38,436 bases of DNA from positions 1 to 38,436 of the forward strand of contig NZ_JASAMB010000037.1 of assembly GCF_029948125.1 (NCBI RefSeq). Direction: 5' to 3'. The notes under the pieces are model-generated. The model made no database searches. It was not told the DNA's origin and saw nothing but the letters and a program-made list of their open reading frames with translations. This stretch comes from Catellatospora sp. KI3. GTDB lineage: Bacteria > Actinomycetota > Actinomycetes > Mycobacteriales > Micromonosporaceae. Shown here in pieces: positions 10,133-19,839 of this stretch. Position 1 is the first letter of the stretch. Each line of letters opens with the position of its first letter. A program made the translations under genes and the position numbers.

Positions 10133-11347
10133 TCAACCCTGCCGGCTCTGCGCCAGCTGGAGCAGGAACTCGGCGTTGCTGGCGGTCTTGCCGAGCCGGT
10201 CCACCAGCTGCTCGCCGGCCGACTGGCCGTCCATCGAGCGCATCGCGCGGCGCAGGCGCCGCACCAGGTCCAGCTCGCGCGGGTCGAGTAGCAGCTCCTC
10301 GCGGCGGGTGCCGGAGGCGTCGACGTCGACCGCCGGGAAGACGCGCCGCTCGGCCAGGCCGCGCAGCAGGCGCAGCTCGGCGTTGCCGGTGCTCTTGAAC
10401 TCCTCGAAGATGACCGTGTCGCCCAGCGAACCGGTCTCCACCAGCGCGGTGGCGATGATGGTCAGCGAGCCGCCGCCCTCGATGTTGCGGGCCGCGCCGA
10501 GGAAGCGCTTGGGCCCGTACAGGGCGCCGGCCTCGATGCCGCCGGACATGACCCGGCCGCCGGAGGGGGCGGCGAGGTTGTAGGCGCGGCCCAGCCGGGT
10601 GATGGAGTCGAGCAGCACGATCACGTCGCGGCCGCCCTCGACCAGGCGCTTGGCCCGCTCGATGGCCAGTTCGGCCACGGCGGTGTGCTCGGCCGGCGGC
10701 TGGTCGAAGGTGGACGAGACGACCTCACCGCGTACGGTGCGGCGCATGTCGGTGACCTCTTCGGGCCGCTCGTCGATGAGGATCGCCATCAGGTGGCAGT
10801 CGGGGTGGTTGATCGAGACGGCGCGGGCGATCGCCTGCAGCACCTGCGTCTTGCCCGCCTTGGGGGGCGACACGATCAGGGCCCGCTGGCCCTTGCCGAT
10901 GGGGCTGAGCAGGTCGATGACACGGGTGGTGAGCACCTGCGGCTCGACCTCCAGCCGCAGCCGCTCCTGCGGGAACAGCGGCGTGAGCCGGTAGAAGTCG
11001 GGGCGGGGCGCGGGCGGGTCGGCGGGGTCGCCGTTGACCGTGTGCGCCGCCGTCACGGTCGGGCGGCGGCCGGAGCGGCCGTCGCCGCGTTCGGCCGGGG
11101 CCGCCATGGCGCCGGTGAGCACGTCGCCGCGCCGCAGGTCGTGCTGCCGGACCAGGGCGGGCGGCAGGTACGGGTCGCGGGGGTCGGGCAGGTAGCCGCG
11201 CAGGCGTACGAACGCGTGGTGGTCGCGGGTGTCGACGATGCCGGTGAAGGCCGTGGCGGTGTCGTCGGGGCTCGGTTCGGACGTGGTGGCGGTGCCGCGG
11301 CGGCGGTGCCGGGCGGGGGACTGCGCCTTGACGGCCAGTTCGGTCAT
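10133..11347 (-). CDS. rho: Short-form transcription termination factor Rho
   Basis: A 404-residue protein. The start is set by AGGAG seven bases before ATG 11347; the longer frame to 11602 is mostly non-coding leader. An RNA-binding cold-shock-like domain (FTGIVDTRDHHAFVRLRGYL) is followed by the Rho ATPase: P-loop SPPKAGKT (Lys166), the LIDERPEEVTDM block, Walker B-type DVIVLLDSITRL, GGRVMSGGIE (Q-loop region), and SLTIIATALVETGS with GNAELRL. Main Rho proteins of actinobacteria usually carry a long charged N-terminal insertion of several hundred residues. Here the N-terminus is only a short basic stretch (RHRRRGTATT), so this is probably a second, paralogous Rho. It would be a hexameric RNA-dependent translocase acting on untranslated RNA. 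Confidence 0.93.
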   Translation of the reverse strand: MTELAVKAQSPARHRRRGTATTSEPSPDDTATAFTGIVDTRDHHAFVRLRGYLPDPRDPYLPPALVRQHDLRRGDVLTGAMAAPAERGDGRSGRRPTVTAAHTVNGDPADPPAPRPDFYRLTPLFPQERLRLEVEPQVLTTRVIDLLSPIGKGQRALIVSPPKAGKTQVLQAIARAVSINHPDCHLMAILIDERPEEVTDMRRTVRGEVVSSTFDQPPAEHTAVAELAIERAKRLVEGGRDVIVLLDSITRLGRAYNLAAPSGGRVMSGGIEAGALYGPKRFLGAARNIEGGGSLTIIATALVETGSLGDTVIFEEFKSTGNAELRLLRGLAERRVFPAVDVDASGTRREELLLDPRELDLVRRLRRAMRSMDGQSAGEQLVDRLGKTASNAEFLLQLAQSRQG

Positions 11348-14383: not shown

Positions 14384-17245
14384 TCACTGCGGGTCGGGGA
14401 GGTCGTGCTCTTTGCGGAGTTTGCGGGCGCGGCGGTGCTCGCCCTGCTCGTCCAGGGCGCGGGCCAGCCAGCCCGCGGTGTCGCGGCGGCCCTCGTGGTC
14501 GCGCGGCAGCTCCTCCAGCACCCGCCGCAGCACCGGCTCGGCCGCCGCGGGCTGCCCCGACACGACCAGCACCTGGCCCTGCCGCAGGTCGCACAGCAGC
14601 GCCTCGCCGTAGGCCTCGATGGATCGGAACAGCCCGGCCGCCGTGGTCACCCGCGCGATCGCCGCCAGGTGGTCGGGGGTGTCGTTGTTGGTCAGCACCT
14701 GGGCGGCCTCGTAGCTGGCCATGGCGCGCTCCCAGGTCAGCTGCGCCTCCTGCTCCTGCGGCACCTCGGTGACGGCCATCAGCTCCTGCAGCCGCGCGAC
14801 CGCGGCCCTGGCGTCGTCGGGCCGCCCCGCGTGGTGCAGCGCCATCACCTGGCGGCGCCGCGCGTGCACCGTGGCCAGGGCCAGGTCCGCCTGCCCGAAC
14901 GCCTGGGCGGCGGCGTCGAAGCGCTCGGCCGCCTCGGCGTCCCGGTCGACCTGCCACAGCAGCTCCCCGGCCCGCATCAGCAGCCGCGCCCGCAGCGGCA
15001 GCTGCTCCACTCCGGTGACCAGCGGCAGCACCGCGTCGACCTGGCCGACCGCGACGTGCGGTTCACCCAGCTCGGCGTAGACGCCGGAGAGCAGGTCCCG
15101 CAGCTCCACCAGGATCTCGGTCCCGTCCTCGTCCAGGTGGCGGACGAACCACGCGACCGCCTCCTCGGCCACCTCCGCGGCCTCGGTGAACCGGCCGGTG
15201 TTCGCCAGCGCCAGCGCCAGCCGGTGCCGGGTGTACGCCGCCGCGCGGGCCTGGCCCTCGGCCTCCATCAGGCAGATGTGCTCGACGATGTCGTCGATCA
15301 CCTCCCCGGCCCGGTCCGTGGTGACGAGCATGAACGCGGCGTTGGCCCGGGCGGTGCGCCGCAGCTCCGGGTCCTGCGCCACCGCCGCCGCCTCCTCGAA
15401 CGCGGCGATCGTGGCCGTGTTGTCGCCCCGGTCGCCCAGCGCCCGGGCCAGGCCGATCAGCGTGTTGGCGAGCTGGTCGCGGTGCTCGGTGCCGCGCAGC
15501 AGCCCGGCCGCCTCCTGGATCAGGGCCAGCGCCTGCTCGTCGTGGCCCTGCCGACCGAGCACGGCGGCGCGCAGCTGCGTGAGCTGCGCGCGGCGCCCCG
15601 CCGAGACCGGGCCGGGCTCGGCCTCGGCACGGCCGATCAGGCTCAGCGCCCGGTCGTCGTCGCCGCTCATCGCCGCGACCCAGGCGGCGCGGCCCAGCGC
15701 GCCGTGGCGCACCGCCGGGTCGGTCGAGGCCGCCAGGACCTGCTCGGTCGCCTCGTACGCCCCGGCGATGTGCGACTCGTCGCCGGACAGGCGCAGCATG
15801 GTGATCGACCACTGGGCGCGGGCCGCCCACTCGCGGGCGAGGTCGCCCGCGCGGACGAAGCCGTCGATGGCCTCCTGCAGCGCCTCCGCGGCGCCGGGCA
15901 GGTCGTCCTCGCCCAGCTGCGCGGCCCGCTGCCGGGCCAGCCGGCCGCGCTGCAGGTCCGTGAGCTCGGCATCGGCGTACTCGGCCAGCACCCGCGCCCG
16001 CAGCGCCCGGGCCCGGACCTCCTGATCCTGCTGGGACCACTCGTCGATCAGGTCGAGCTGCTCGTCCAGCGGCGCGTCGGCCGGGGCGGCCGACAGGTCG
16101 ACCTCCGGCGGGGCCGCTTCGGCGGCCGGGACCGGGCGGGGGTGGGCCGCCGTGACCGACAGCGGCAGGTAGTCCACCAGCGCGGCCGCGTCCATCAGGG
16201 CGGCGATGCGGCCGCTCTGGTAGGTGTTGCCGTTGCGGGCGTCGAAGCGGCGGGCCAGGCCCTCGGCCCGCTCGCGCAGCTGCGCCAGCAGCTCGGCCGC
16301 GGCGACCGGCCCGGCGGCCCGGCGCACCGGCAGCTCGCCCTGCCCGCCCTCGACCAGGTGCCGCAGCACCAGCGCCGCCGCCGCGGCGAACTCCATCTCG
16401 GTCTTCGGCTCGGGGGCCTCGTCCAGCCACGGCAGGTGGCGCTCGATCAGCTCCAGGCCGCGCACCTCGTTGCCGGTCAGCCCGCAGAACTCCAGGTGCG
16501 TCGCGACGCGGCCGAGCTCCGACTTGTTCTGGGCCAGCGCCCGGTAGGCCCGCCGGTGCGCGTCGCGCGCCAGTTCCAGCTGCCCGGTGCGCACGTAGGG
16601 CAGCAGCAGGCTGGTGAGGATGCCGTGGGGCTGCTCGGCGCAGGTCAGGTGGCCGTCGAGCGCGGGCTGCGCCACCGCGATGGCGTCGGTGTCGCGCCCC
16701 CGCCACGCGTGGTGGTACACCTTCGACGACGGGTCGCAGCCCGCGCAGTCCGACAGCCGGTCGCGCGGGGCCGTGTCCCACATCCGGAACCAGTGGTCGG
16801 CCAGCACCGTGTCGCCCAGGTGGTAGGCGACCGAGTGCCGGTAGGCGTATACGGCGTGCAGGCTGTGCCCGGCGGACTGGTAGCGGCGCTGCATGTCGTC
16901 GAGCACCGCCTGGGTGCGCTCCAGCGGCATCTCCGGGAAGCGGGGCATCGCCGCGACGACGAACTTGAAGTGCCACAGCAGCAGGTGCTCGTCGCGCTCG
17001 CTGCGCCGACCCGGGTCCGCGTCGTATGCCGACAGGCAGCGCGCGAACGACACCATCGCCTTCATCGGCTCGCCGCCCTGGTGGTAGGCGGTGGTCGCCA
17101 GCGTGTTGGCCGCGTACTCCAGGTCGGCGTCGCCCAGGGCCTCGGCCCCGGCCAGGGCCTGCTCGGCCAGCGCGATGCGGGCCGGGCCGTCAGCGGTGTC
17201 CCAGGCGCGGTGGATCAGGTCGTGGACCTGCTCGTGGGTCGTCAT
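14384..17245 (-). CDS. Large TPR-like helical repeat protein, coupled to an Hsp90-family gene
   Basis: A 953-residue, almost wholly alpha-helical protein of tetratricopeptide type. The ATG at 17245 overlaps the Hsp90 stop (ATGA), which fixes the start; the open frame upstream of it is antisense-like background. The N-terminal third is distinctive. It carries CAGC (Cys167-Cys170), then VYHHAWRGRDTDAI, then HLTCAEQPHG (Cys202, His207), a possible metal or redox site. From about residue 360 on, helix pairs with TPR spacing continue to the end. Examples are ARALGDRGDNTATIAAFEEA, ALANTGRFTEAAEVAEEAV and LMRAGELLWQVDRDAEAAER. There is no membrane segment or enzymatic motif. By analogy with eukaryotic TPR co-chaperones it may guide clients of the upstream ATPase, but the Hsp90 tail is not the MEEVD that those proteins bind. 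This role is inference. Confidence 0.82.
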   Translation of the reverse strand: MTTHEQVHDLIHRAWDTADGPARIALAEQALAGAEALGDADLEYAANTLATTAYHQGGEPMKAMVSFARCLSAYDADPGRRSERDEHLLLWHFKFVVAAMPRFPEMPLERTQAVLDDMQRRYQSAGHSLHAVYAYRHSVAYHLGDTVLADHWFRMWDTAPRDRLSDCAGCDPSSKVYHHAWRGRDTDAIAVAQPALDGHLTCAEQPHGILTSLLLPYVRTGQLELARDAHRRAYRALAQNKSELGRVATHLEFCGLTGNEVRGLELIERHLPWLDEAPEPKTEMEFAAAAALVLRHLVEGGQGELPVRRAAGPVAAAELLAQLRERAEGLARRFDARNGNTYQSGRIAALMDAAALVDYLPLSVTAAHPRPVPAAEAAPPEVDLSAAPADAPLDEQLDLIDEWSQQDQEVRARALRARVLAEYADAELTDLQRGRLARQRAAQLGEDDLPGAAEALQEAIDGFVRAGDLAREWAARAQWSITMLRLSGDESHIAGAYEATEQVLAASTDPAVRHGALGRAAWVAAMSGDDDRALSLIGRAEAEPGPVSAGRRAQLTQLRAAVLGRQGHDEQALALIQEAAGLLRGTEHRDQLANTLIGLARALGDRGDNTATIAAFEEAAAVAQDPELRRTARANAAFMLVTTDRAGEVIDDIVEHICLMEAEGQARAAAYTRHRLALALANTGRFTEAAEVAEEAVAWFVRHLDEDGTEILVELRDLLSGVYAELGEPHVAVGQVDAVLPLVTGVEQLPLRARLLMRAGELLWQVDRDAEAAERFDAAAQAFGQADLALATVHARRRQVMALHHAGRPDDARAAVARLQELMAVTEVPQEQEAQLTWERAMASYEAAQVLTNNDTPDHLAAIARVTTAAGLFRSIEAYGEALLCDLRQGQVLVVSGQPAAAEPVLRRVLEELPRDHEGRRDTAGWLARALDEQGEHRRARKLRKEHDLPDPQ

Positions 17246-19017
17246 GAGTCCTCCCGGGAGGTGTGCGGGACAGCCAGGTCGATCAGGTCGAGGAAGGAGC
17301 GGTTCAGCAGGGCGGTGTCGGCCGGGCGCAGCGGGTGGTGGCCGAACAGCAGGGCCTGGCCGTACAGCGACTGCACGGTCAGCCCGACCAGCTCCGGGGT
17401 GGGCAGGCCGACGACGCGGCGCACCAGCGGGTTGCGGTGGTTGAGCACCAGCTGCGGGCGTACCTGCGCCTCGGCCTTCTCGAACGCCGACAGCACCCCC
17501 GCCCACAGGTCGTCGGCGCGCTGCGCGGTCTCCCGCAGGCGCCGCTGGAAGGTGGCGTCGCGGTCGGTCAGGTACAGCGCGGGCATGGTCGGCGGGTCGA
17601 ACGCGCGCAGCACCACCTCGCAGCCCAGCGGGTCCAGGGTGCGCTGGGCGGCGGCCAGGAACGGGCGCAGGTCCAGCTCGGTGCCGGGGTCGAGGGTGTC
17701 GAACCGGGTCGACAGGTCGCTGGGGTCCAGCCGGTCCACCAGGATCGAGGAGTCCAGCAGCGGCAGCCGCTCGATCAGCTCCGCGTCGTAGGTGTAGCCG
17801 CCGTTGACCACGAGCAGGCCCTGGGCCGCCGCGACCGCCGCCAGCTGCCGGAACTCGTCGTTGTCGGCGCTGTAGCGGACCACGTCGTGGCGGCGGCGCA
17901 CCTCGCTCAGCGTCATCCGGCCCATGTTCGTCTCCATCGGCCACCACTGGTCGACCAGGCGCAGCATCTCCTCGTCGTGCAGGGCCAGCGCCTTCACGCC
18001 CAGGTGGTGCACGGCCAGGAACCGGTTCATCCGGTCCGGTTCGTGCCGGGCCAGGTTCACCAGCCAGCCGCGCAGCTGCTCGCCGAGCTGCTCGCGCACC
18101 GACTCCAGCAGGCCGTCCTCGTACAGGGCCTCGCGGCTGGCGGTGGGGCGCAGCTCGGTGGCGTCCACGACGCAGCGGGCGAAGAACGCCCACGGCGGCA
18201 GCACGTCCTCGGCCCCCTCGGCCAGCAGCATGCGCTTGAGGTAGACCCGGTGCCCGGACTTCGCGGCCGGGTTGACGGCGGTCGGCAGCACCAGTGCCAC
18301 GCCCGTCAGCCCGGCCTCGGGCACGTTCAGCTCGATCACGTCGAACGGGGTGAACGCGAACGCCTGCTCGGCCAGCGCGGTCGCCGCGGCCCGGTTGCCC
18401 GCCTGCCAGGGCAGTGCCTCGGCGGTGACCAGTTCCCCGTCGACGCGCACCGGGTACGGCAGCATCTCGCCGTACAGCGCGGCTAGGTCCCGGACCCGCT
18501 CGGCCTCCAGCCAGGAGACGGCGTCGCGGCGCGGCACCAGGGTGACCGTGGTGCCGACCTCCTGCCGGTCCGGGCCGGGCGCGACCTGGTAGCGGCCGTC
18601 GGAGAAGCCGGTCCAGTAGACGGTCGGGTGGCCCTCGTGGCGGGTCTGCACCCGGATCTCGTCGGCGACCAGGAAGCACGACAGCAGGCCGATGCCGAAC
18701 TGGCCCAGGAACTCGTGCCGCGAGAAGCCCAGCTCGTCGCGCTTGCCGCTGCGGCCGATGGTGGCCAGCAGCTCGTGCACCTGCTGCTTGGTCAGGCCGA
18801 GGCCGGTGTCGTGCACCCGCAGCGTGCCGTCGCCGGTGGTGGTCGGGGTCTCCAGCCATACCGAGGCGGGGGAGGTGGGGGCGGCGGCCCGGCGGGCGGT
18901 GATGGCGTCCACGGCGTTCTGCATGAGTTCGCGCACGTATACGCGCGGGCTGCTGTAGAGGTGGTGGCTCAGCAGATCGACGATGCCGCGGAGGTCCACC
19001 TGGAACGACTGGTTCAC
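17242..19017 (-). CDS. Hsp90-family molecular chaperone ATPase (HtpG-like)
   Basis: A 591-residue protein from GTG 19017. No strong ribosome site is near, but TAGCCT at 19030-19025 lies seven bases before the GTG, so translation may be leaderless. All GHKL nucleotide motifs are present: ELMQNAVDA (Glu30 and Asn34), HDTGLGL (Asp70), the IGRSGK lid start, and FLGQFGIGLLSCF (103-115). The middle-domain catalytic arginine is in the PTASREALYEDG stretch (Arg295). It is shorter than typical HtpG and clearly divergent in the middle and C-terminal parts. It ends in TSREDS rather than an MEEVD-like tail. It should be an active ATP-driven dimeric chaperone. The directly coupled TPR-like gene suggests a dedicated partner. 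Confidence 0.9.
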   Translation of the reverse strand: MNQSFQVDLRGIVDLLSHHLYSSPRVYVRELMQNAVDAITARRAAAPTSPASVWLETPTTTGDGTLRVHDTGLGLTKQQVHELLATIGRSGKRDELGFSRHEFLGQFGIGLLSCFLVADEIRVQTRHEGHPTVYWTGFSDGRYQVAPGPDRQEVGTTVTLVPRRDAVSWLEAERVRDLAALYGEMLPYPVRVDGELVTAEALPWQAGNRAAATALAEQAFAFTPFDVIELNVPEAGLTGVALVLPTAVNPAAKSGHRVYLKRMLLAEGAEDVLPPWAFFARCVVDATELRPTASREALYEDGLLESVREQLGEQLRGWLVNLARHEPDRMNRFLAVHHLGVKALALHDEEMLRLVDQWWPMETNMGRMTLSEVRRRHDVVRYSADNDEFRQLAAVAAAQGLLVVNGGYTYDAELIERLPLLDSSILVDRLDPSDLSTRFDTLDPGTELDLRPFLAAAQRTLDPLGCEVVLRAFDPPTMPALYLTDRDATFQRRLRETAQRADDLWAGVLSAFEKAEAQVRPQLVLNHRNPLVRRVVGLPTPELVGLTVQSLYGQALLFGHHPLRPADTALLNRSFLDLIDLAVPHTSREDS

Positions 19018-19081: not shown

Positions 19082-19143
19082 TGCGGTTTCGGGGAGATTG
19101 CACGAATCTCGGCCGAGATTCCCGCGCTTTCCCCGAAACCGCA
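19082..19143. repeat. Nested palindromes between the pentapeptide and Hsp90 genes
   Basis: TGCGGTTTCGGGGA (19082-19095) pairs perfectly with 19130-19143 (14 bases). Inside it lies a second perfect 18-base palindrome, GAATCTCGGCCGAGATTC (19104-19121). It could be a terminator for the pentapeptide gene, or a cruciform-like regulatory site upstream of the Hsp90 promoter. Confidence 0.7.
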
Positions 19144-19161: not shown

Positions 19162-19839
19162 TCACGCGTCCGCGATGGTGATGCCCAACGCGGTGGCCAG
19201 GGTGAAGGAGAGGGCGGCGAGGTCGCGGGAGGTGATGGTGGCGCCGCGCAGGCTGGCGACGCTGCCGATGCCGCCCAGCTCGCACTGGCTGAAGCTGGTG
19301 TCGCGGCAGTCGGCCTGGGCGAACTGCGCCCCGGACAGGTCGCAGCCGGAGAACCGCGCGCCGCGCAGGTCGGCCTGGGTGAAGTCGGCCCGGGTGAGGT
19401 TGCAGTCGACGAACGACACGTCCTTGAACGAGCTGAACCGGAACACCGCCAGGTCCATCCGGCACTCGCGCAGCGACACGTCGCGCAGCGCGCCGTCGAC
19501 CCAGTGCAGGCCGGTGAGGCGTACCGCCTCGATGTCGACCCGCAGCAGCGACGACCGGGTGGCGCGCAGATTGGCCCAGTCGCTGCCGCGCACCTGGCAG
19601 TCGGTGAACGCCGCCCGCTCCAGGGCGGTCCCGGCCAGCGGCGTACGGGTGAACCGGCACTGCTCGAACTCGACCCCGTGCCCGCTCTGCCCGCTCAGGT
19701 CGAGTCCGTCGAAGGACAGCTGCCGGAATCTCGCCTCGTCCTCCAGGTCGTGGTCGGGCGACGAGGCCGGCGAGGTCGTCGCGGACAGCCGCGGCGGGGC
19801 TGGTGTCGGCGTCGGGGTGCTGCTGTTGCGTACCGGCAT
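19162..19839 (-). CDS. Pentapeptide-repeat protein
   Basis: A 225-residue protein. After a proline/serine/threonine-rich N-terminus (about 1-30) the sequence follows a five-residue periodicity with central Leu/Phe: FDGLDLSGQS, CRFTRTPLAGTAL, CNLTRADFTQADLRGARFSGCDLSGAQFAQADCRDTSF. This predicts a right-handed quadrilateral beta-helix. Cysteine recurs at one face (QCRF, DCQV, ECRM, DCNL, GCDL, QCEL). Some family members bind DNA gyrase; most are unassigned. It lies about 145 bases upstream of the Hsp90-TPR operon on the same strand, with a strong palindrome between them, so co-regulation is possible but not shown. Confidence 0.85.
   Translation of the reverse strand: MPVRNSSTPTPTPAPPRLSATTSPASSPDHDLEDEARFRQLSFDGLDLSGQSGHGVEFEQCRFTRTPLAGTALERAAFTDCQVRGSDWANLRATRSSLLRVDIEAVRLTGLHWVDGALRDVSLRECRMDLAVFRFSSFKDVSFVDCNLTRADFTQADLRGARFSGCDLSGAQFAQADCRDTSFSQCELGGIGSVASLRGATITSRDLAALSFTLATALGITIADA

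Follow-up and report, generated by a model that had tools for sequence, protein, structure and literature searches.

A PRK14083-family Hsp90 ATPase and its overlapping TPR-like neighbour in Catellatospora: a conserved bacterial gene pair and candidate chaperone/co-chaperone unit

The window analyzed here is a 38,436-nucleotide stretch of Catellatospora sp. KI3 DNA (NZ_JASAMB010000037.1; contig 31 in a genome of 8.2 Mb), and its element of interest is a pair of genes on the minus strand. The first (17242..19017; GTG start, 591 amino acids (aa), catalytic residues intact) encodes an Hsp90-family ATPase of NCBIfam NF010683 (PRK14083, 'HSP90 family protein'), and the second (14384..17245; ATG start) a partner protein of 953 aa, with an N-terminal superhelix of the tetratricopeptide repeat (TPR)/MalT-like type and a C-terminal TPR region. 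Both genes are intact and overlap at ATGA, as the first-pass annotation of this DNA reported, the four shared bases (17242..17245, minus strand) holding the stop codon of the Hsp90 gene and the start codon of its partner. A ribosome-binding-like GGGAGG lies ahead of the partner gene, within the 3' end of the Hsp90 gene (17250..17255, minus strand), and translational coupling of the two through the overlap is likely. The initial observation, of an intact Hsp90-family ATPase gene overlapping that of a TPR-like protein, is thus confirmed, and its interpretation as a chaperone and co-chaperone is partly supported by the analyses described below.

By profile score, the window Hsp90 is certainly a member of the known PRK14083/NF010683 family and not an ordinary HtpG. 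It matches NF010683 at 815.7 bits (cut-off 455) over its full length, residues 1-589 aligning with positions 4-602 of 604, and reaches only 165 bits against the HtpG model NF003555, below the cut-off of 371. Its described divergence from HtpG is borne out, as is its lesser length (591 aa, against 623 aa for the HtpG of the same genome as called). The residues singled out earlier (Glu30, Asn34, Asp70, the FLGQFGIG loop and Arg295) are all where they were said to be, and the set expected of a GHKL/Hsp90 ATPase is complete (E30, N34, D70, G105/G108/G110 and R295); E30, N34, D70 and R295 are kept in 99/99 PRK14083 family members. HtpG shares these catalytic residues, but falls outside the single clade (support 0.955) formed by the family in an HtpG-rooted tree of those 99 members, 12 HtpGs and two intermediate proteins. 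The window Hsp90 ends in PHTSREDS and, as first noted, has no MEEVD tail; MEEVD is likewise absent from the twelve commonest last-five-residue tails of its relatives, and the 99 family members have no C-terminal tail in common. Two more Hsp90-type proteins are encoded in the same genome, one HtpG-like on contig C13 (NF010683 score 189 bits) and one of PRK14083 type on contig C23 (784 bits). The PRK14083/NF010683 entry, as printed, names no partner. Chen et al. (2006; PMC1525184) class bacterial Hsp90/HTPG into groups A to C and list two HTPG copies, of 638 and 615 aa, for Streptomyces coelicolor; we infer that PRK14083 corresponds to the shorter of these and to their group C. Their main text uses none of the terms operon, tetratricopeptide and TPR. 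Elsewhere in the tree, a PRK14083-like Hsp90 without a partner (L228:5734-7479) groups in one clade with L074 and L075, which are diverged.

The pairing of the two genes was followed through two samples of actinobacterial genomes, 61 relatives and 296 genomes of the class (G000, G013, G043, G050 and G056 are in both), each searched with the Hsp90 model and with the partner, and the match positions compared. Genes were taken to be beside one another at less than 300 bp, with gaps measured between match edges, and gene calls were made by a simple codon-usage caller that may miss genes; among the relatives, 5/81 rows of the Hsp90 search (fragments, 19 to 56 bits) and 2/62 rows of the partner search (second pieces of the same protein) were left out. 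In the class sample, every one of the 41 Hsp90s scoring at least 455 bits is followed by the partner domain on the same strand, across a gap of at most 82 bp. Because a further protein, G206, passes the cut-off when taken together with its neighbours in frame, the count for this sample is properly 41/42 family members with the partner directly downstream. Among the relatives, the partner lies beside 40/43 Hsp90s (upstream in one of the 40), and the three misses are a pair at a contig end with a visible piece of the domain (G015), an Hsp90 with a distant homologue of the partner some 4 kb downstream (G014), and one with two diverged partner copies right after it, a single one of which gives a direct match (G053; E 9.6e-7). 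Later profiles included both G053 copies, and their profile matches are not independent. HtpG-like genes, by contrast, never have the partner adjacent (0/54 in the class sample, 0/31 in the relatives), and neither do the two intermediate proteins found in the relatives (0/2). Counted from the other side, 41/46 partner genes in the class sample and 40/60 in the relatives adjoin an Hsp90. In 24/35 of the class-sample genomes where the Hsp90 is paired, the same model gave no HtpG-like match at a threshold of E 1e-30, so these cells may have the pair as their entire Hsp90 system.

The association extends well beyond this class. A one-genome-per-species scan with the Hsp90 alignment alone provided 80 named loci (the best 80 of at least 552 relatives), for which a partner profile was built without any of them, a match anywhere in each locus stretch being counted. 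By this profile the partner is present in 76/80, and a 77th locus holds a copy cut at a contig end. Partnered loci span nine phyla, as assigned from record titles: Bacillota (34/36), Actinomycetota (16/16), Planctomycetota (9/10), Myxococcota (8/8), Bacteroidota (4/4), Acidobacteriota (2/2), and Pseudomonadota, Deinococcota and Desulfobacterota (1/1 each), with one unclassified metagenome-assembled genome (MAG; 1/1). The 77 include a partner on the opposite strand (L181), one upstream (L212), one 779 bp away (L157), one weakly matched (L199; E 1e-7) and one in broken frames (L201). Clustering of the called neighbours showed the partner to be the only common one, with 74/80 loci in its cluster and 10/80 in the next-largest. 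No natural Hsp90-TPR fusion protein was found at any of the 80 named loci; the apparent fusion of some open frames comes only from the lack of stops in high-GC frames. In a plasmid collection, six of nine Hsp90 records are full-length matches (three Streptomyces, two Listeria and one Paenibacillus, three of these records being larger than 2.5 Mb), all with an adjacent partner, while three partial matches (two Xanthomonas and one Pseudanabaena, about 63% covered) are without one, and an Actinomyces oris record has the partner and no Hsp90 match. In one Listeria record (L143:6980-12078) the Hsp90 gene adjoins fri; behind it come two tandem partners, both labelled 'hypothetical protein' (324 and about 320 aa), and then genes for an SMI1/KNR4 protein and a low-molecular-weight tyrosine phosphatase.

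The pairing is far beyond chance. The first-pass annotation had held that homologues mostly lacking the TPR gene would count against its proposal, and the result went the opposite way, with the partner present at 41/42, 40/43 and 77/80 Hsp90s. Hsp90 and partner protein distances are strongly correlated across 88 pairs (Mantel r 0.939; 0/500 permutations as high), which shows co-inheritance, not contact in itself. If the genes were neighbours by descent only and had no joint function, then inertia could explain linkage inside one order, but persistence across nine phyla amid otherwise different surroundings, and the occurrence of the pair in two diverged copies in the Catellatospora genome, leave this explanation scarcely credible.

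Structure prediction gives the N-terminal domain of the partner, of about 365 residues, a TPR/MalT-like superhelix of 18 predicted helices (predicted local distance difference test, 97.0; predicted template modelling score, 0.93), and profile comparison matches it to a designed pentatricopeptide repeat (PPR) structure (E 3.8e-14) and a consensus TPR (E 9.8e-8), and both support the earlier TPR-like call. The domain (residues 1-365; 16151..17245, minus strand) is the part common to several phyla, and has no Pfam match here. In the window protein Pfam TPR is recognized in the C-terminal part only and below the cut-off (TPR_12, 25.9 bits against 30.1, E 1.1e-5); since the cut-off is not reached, assignment to the TPR superfamily follows from the fold. 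A relative, L156, passes TPR_14 (26.0 against 23.5). Searched in full against Protein Data Bank sequences, the window partner has no match at E 0.1, and Foldseek alone returned weak N-domain matches, one of them at E 0.001 or better. The nearest homologues are Catellatospora proteins (87% and 83%), and the most conserved residues of the family form an FDxRN(G) motif at residues 335-339 (D335, R337, N338 and G339; 16229..16243, minus strand), with R337 in 149, N338 in 148 and D335 in 143 of 150 partner sequences.

Superhelices of this type invite another explanation, namely a sensor-regulator pair in which the Hsp90-like ATPase would control the active state of a superhelix that recognises a peptide or small ligand, much as domain III of MalT, Rap and NprR do. 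Identity to these sensors is 7-12% in the aligned rows. Match scores of the kind reached by such sensors are common to functionally unrelated TPR proteins, a subunit of the anaphase-promoting complex/cyclosome reaching 22.9. Neither a DNA-binding nor a phosphatase part, nor any other effector domain, was found in the window protein, and we regard a sensor-regulator role as quite improbable.

Beyond the constant domain the partners differ widely. The large size remarked upon in the first-pass annotation holds for the window protein (953 residues), but not as a general feature, as 63/66 domain copies counted outside Actinomycetota are nearly domain-only, stopping within 60 residues past the domain. 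The C-terminal part may be TPR, YbjN, DUF4026 or nothing at all. In the window it is a TPR region from about residue 401 (14384..16045, minus strand), the site of the sub-threshold TPR_12 match. In the second pair of this genome the partner ends instead in a YbjN domain (PF10722, E 1.1e-16), and a separate small YbjN gene precedes that Hsp90 (E 7.3e-24); this family is absent from the window pair. DUF4026 is added in two Clostridia MAG partners (E 2.6e-6 and 3.2e-13). A constant N-domain with a variable C-terminus would be expected if the former contacts the Hsp90 and the latter its clients, and the variable module is perhaps the client- or target-binding part. At contig C23 the YbjN gene, the PRK14083 Hsp90 and the YbjN-ended partner make up a second, paralogous unit (L063:8717-12494). 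At two loci of one genus (L242:5532-7609 and L243:4969-7019) a small gene overlaps the partner gene with no Hsp90 between them, the small gene being YbjN in L242 and a look-alike in L243.

The N-terminal domain also carries a CxxC...C cluster (16640..16747, minus strand), comprising Cys167 (16747-16745), Cys170 (16738-16736) and Cys202 (16642-16640), which was originally described together with His207 as a group of four. All four residues are present, but conservation upholds the three cysteines and not the histidine. Among 150 distinct partner sequences, in which close relatives are over-represented, 137 have all three cysteines, twelve have none and one has a single one; this nearly all-or-none pattern fits a joint site, and nine of the 13 copies without the full set occur as extras alongside a three-cysteine copy in the same locus. 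Six Bacteroidota and Clostridia loci (L208, L214, L215, L224, L197 and L210) have two to four partner copies, one alone with all three cysteines. In the predicted secondary structure, Cys167 lies in one inter-repeat loop, Cys170 opens the next helix and Cys202 lies in the following inter-repeat loop, positions which in the model make it probable that the three are close in space. On this evidence, a metal or redox site in the partner is probable. Position 207 is His in 72/150 and Gln in 48/150, and position 230 is His in 96/150, so neither His207 nor His230, being variable, was retained as a fourth ligand; a Listeria cysteine near position 230, considered as a ligand swap, proved to be one column off in a wider alignment. 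Given the acidic residue after Cys170 in 129/150 sequences and the Asp before Cys167 in 135/150, an acidic or water ligand is conceivable, as is a site free of metal. TPR repeats and a CXXC motif also meet in CnoX/YbbN, a protein quality control factor (PMC10490939). The CXXC of CnoX/YbbN sits in a thioredoxin domain, however, whereas the window partner has no thioredoxin domain match.

Taken together, these sequence-based findings make it rather probable, in our judgement, that the two genes form one functional unit, consisting of a PRK14083 Hsp90 ATPase and a dedicated TPR co-chaperone or adaptor with a metal or redox site. The Hsp90 dimer, having the necessary residues, would bind and hydrolyse ATP, and the N-domain superhelix of the partner would dock on the dimer at a surface other than the tail, given that MEEVD is lacking. 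Through the superhelix the ATP cycle could be coupled to clients directly, or to a C-terminal module that binds them (TPR in the window, YbjN or DUF4026 in other partners), and the client would sit in that module or in the groove of the superhelix. The three cysteines may coordinate a metal, probably zinc, or serve as a thiol switch governing the shape of the partner; the site would then stabilise the superhelix, or unlatch it on oxidation or metal loss. The partner would thus work like a eukaryotic TPR co-chaperone, through a different contact. Hop/Sti1, FKBP51/52 and PP5 are such co-chaperones in eukaryotes, where the TPR clamp consists of three repeats. The window pair resembles them in joining an Hsp90 to a TPR-repeat partner, and differs in the absence of MEEVD from the Hsp90, in the long 18-helix superhelix, and in the three conserved cysteines of the partner.

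Several observations weigh against a dedicated co-chaperone with a metal or redox site. G206, which needs its neighbours in frame to pass the family cut-off (479.7 bits), has no partner, and none was found at L204, L205 and L223 within the 2.8, 2.3 and 1.9 kb covered downstream. Congruent protein distances are expected from linkage alone, and residues changed in four partnerless proteins amounted to three columns, from which no clear contact surface on the Hsp90 emerged. The cysteine set is missing from 13/150 copies, and no metal ligand beyond it is invariant. Further, partner genes without an adjacent Hsp90 number 5/46 in the class sample and 20/60 in the relatives, the latter including 11 long copies (one in each of 11 same-genus genomes), one contig-split piece and two second copies behind a pair; some are in genomes in which no PRK14083-family Hsp90 was detected (G011, G013 and G023 among the relatives; G013, G147 and G351 in the class sample). 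That such orphans persist suggests that the protein has a job of its own, and with the variation among C-terminal modules this favours a view of the TPR protein as a dedicated Hsp90 client, needing the chaperone for folding or metal loading and acting elsewhere. The orphans of G011, G013, G023, G147 and G351 would, however, have to fold unaided, and in many phyla the partner consists of the small N-domain alone. Co-chaperone and client are indistinguishable by sequence, and we consider the client explanation unlikely.

One of these orphans is in the Catellatospora genome itself, where a long partner gene without Hsp90 on contig C9 (L064:8410-11223) adjoins genes which, from their protein starts, we take to be of the liu type for leucine degradation. 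Four further genera of the family (L066, L067, L078 and L081) keep the whole pair at this site, which suggests that C9 lost its Hsp90 after the pair had been copied elsewhere.

The apparent stability of the location, with similar flanks in the same four genera, also bears on a role in defence or conflict. In PADLOC the ATPase domain weakly matches TmtA (best E 1.3e-6) and a type II restriction enzyme, and the SMI1/KNR4 gene stands behind the pair in the Listeria record. These matches are confined to roughly the first 130 residues, the common ATPase domain; the partner has none, and no full-length component match was found among the known anti-phage systems. No third gene recurs in more than 10/80 loci, and the word Hsp90 does not appear in the main text of an article on chaperone-based conflict systems (eLife 2020 e52696; PMC7159879). 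A defence or conflict module is accordingly highly improbable.

A pentapeptide-repeat gene (19162-19839; PF13599, E 8.2e-25) does lie just upstream of the Hsp90 gene, as first described, at a distance of 144 bp, but it was rejected as a third component of the unit: of the 40 loci searched, only the window and a close relative (L006) have it beside the pair. The window is one of the 40, and 30 of them (window included) have no more than about 1.5 kb of flank. Between the pentapeptide and Hsp90 genes is a 62-bp palindromic element (19082-19143) with perfect arms of 14 bp and an inner palindrome, the surrounding 75-base stretch having a folding energy of -45.6 kcal/mol (z -6.2). The element matches 77 times in its own genome (both strands), 13-75 times in eight further genomes from this genus and not at all in four genomes from other families of the order, and is a genus-specific repeat resembling repetitive extragenic palindromic (REP) elements. 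Heat-shock operators of the types named controlling inverted repeat of chaperone expression (CIRCE) and HspR-associated inverted repeat (HAIR) are absent from the window at up to 3 mismatches. Elsewhere in the window, positions 10133-11347 encode a short Rho-like protein of 404 aa with a Rho RNA-binding domain (E 1.7e-10) and an ATPase domain (E 8.5e-26); the usual Rho is longer. Outside the family, distant HtpG-like genes at L076:6920-11130 and L077:3808-8005 (284 and 281 bits to NF010683) are directly followed by a 784- or 783-aa protein with CPQSVC and NCFDC motifs and no Pfam match (one of the two was scanned). No relationship of this neighbour to the TPR partner was detected (probability 1.6%, from two sequences only), and L076 and L077 perhaps hold a second, independent Hsp90-partner pair.

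According to PMC7926864, no co-chaperone participating in remodeling has been identified for bacterial Hsp90. Open-access literature listings, outside which most subscription journals lie, hold no recognisable paper on this Hsp90-partner pair; as far as open-access searches go, neither the partner family nor its constant association with the Hsp90 has been described. More broadly, and as a tentative proposal to which we attach somewhat less confidence than to the functional unit itself, the PRK14083 branch in at least nine phyla may be a two-protein machine, with an MEEVD-independent TPR co-chaperone, a three-cysteine metal or redox switch and grafted client-binding modules, and may be the only Hsp90 system in many actinomycetes. 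Genome context in nine phyla makes the TPR protein a strong candidate co-chaperone for bacterial Hsp90, which had been believed to have none; its fold is predicted, its conserved residues are ready targets for mutation, and a minimal form of about 350 aa lends itself to biochemistry. The question of a bacterial Hsp90 co-chaperone thereby becomes directly testable and, if the proposal is true, the pair would offer a comparison for the origin of eukaryotic Hsp90-TPR systems.

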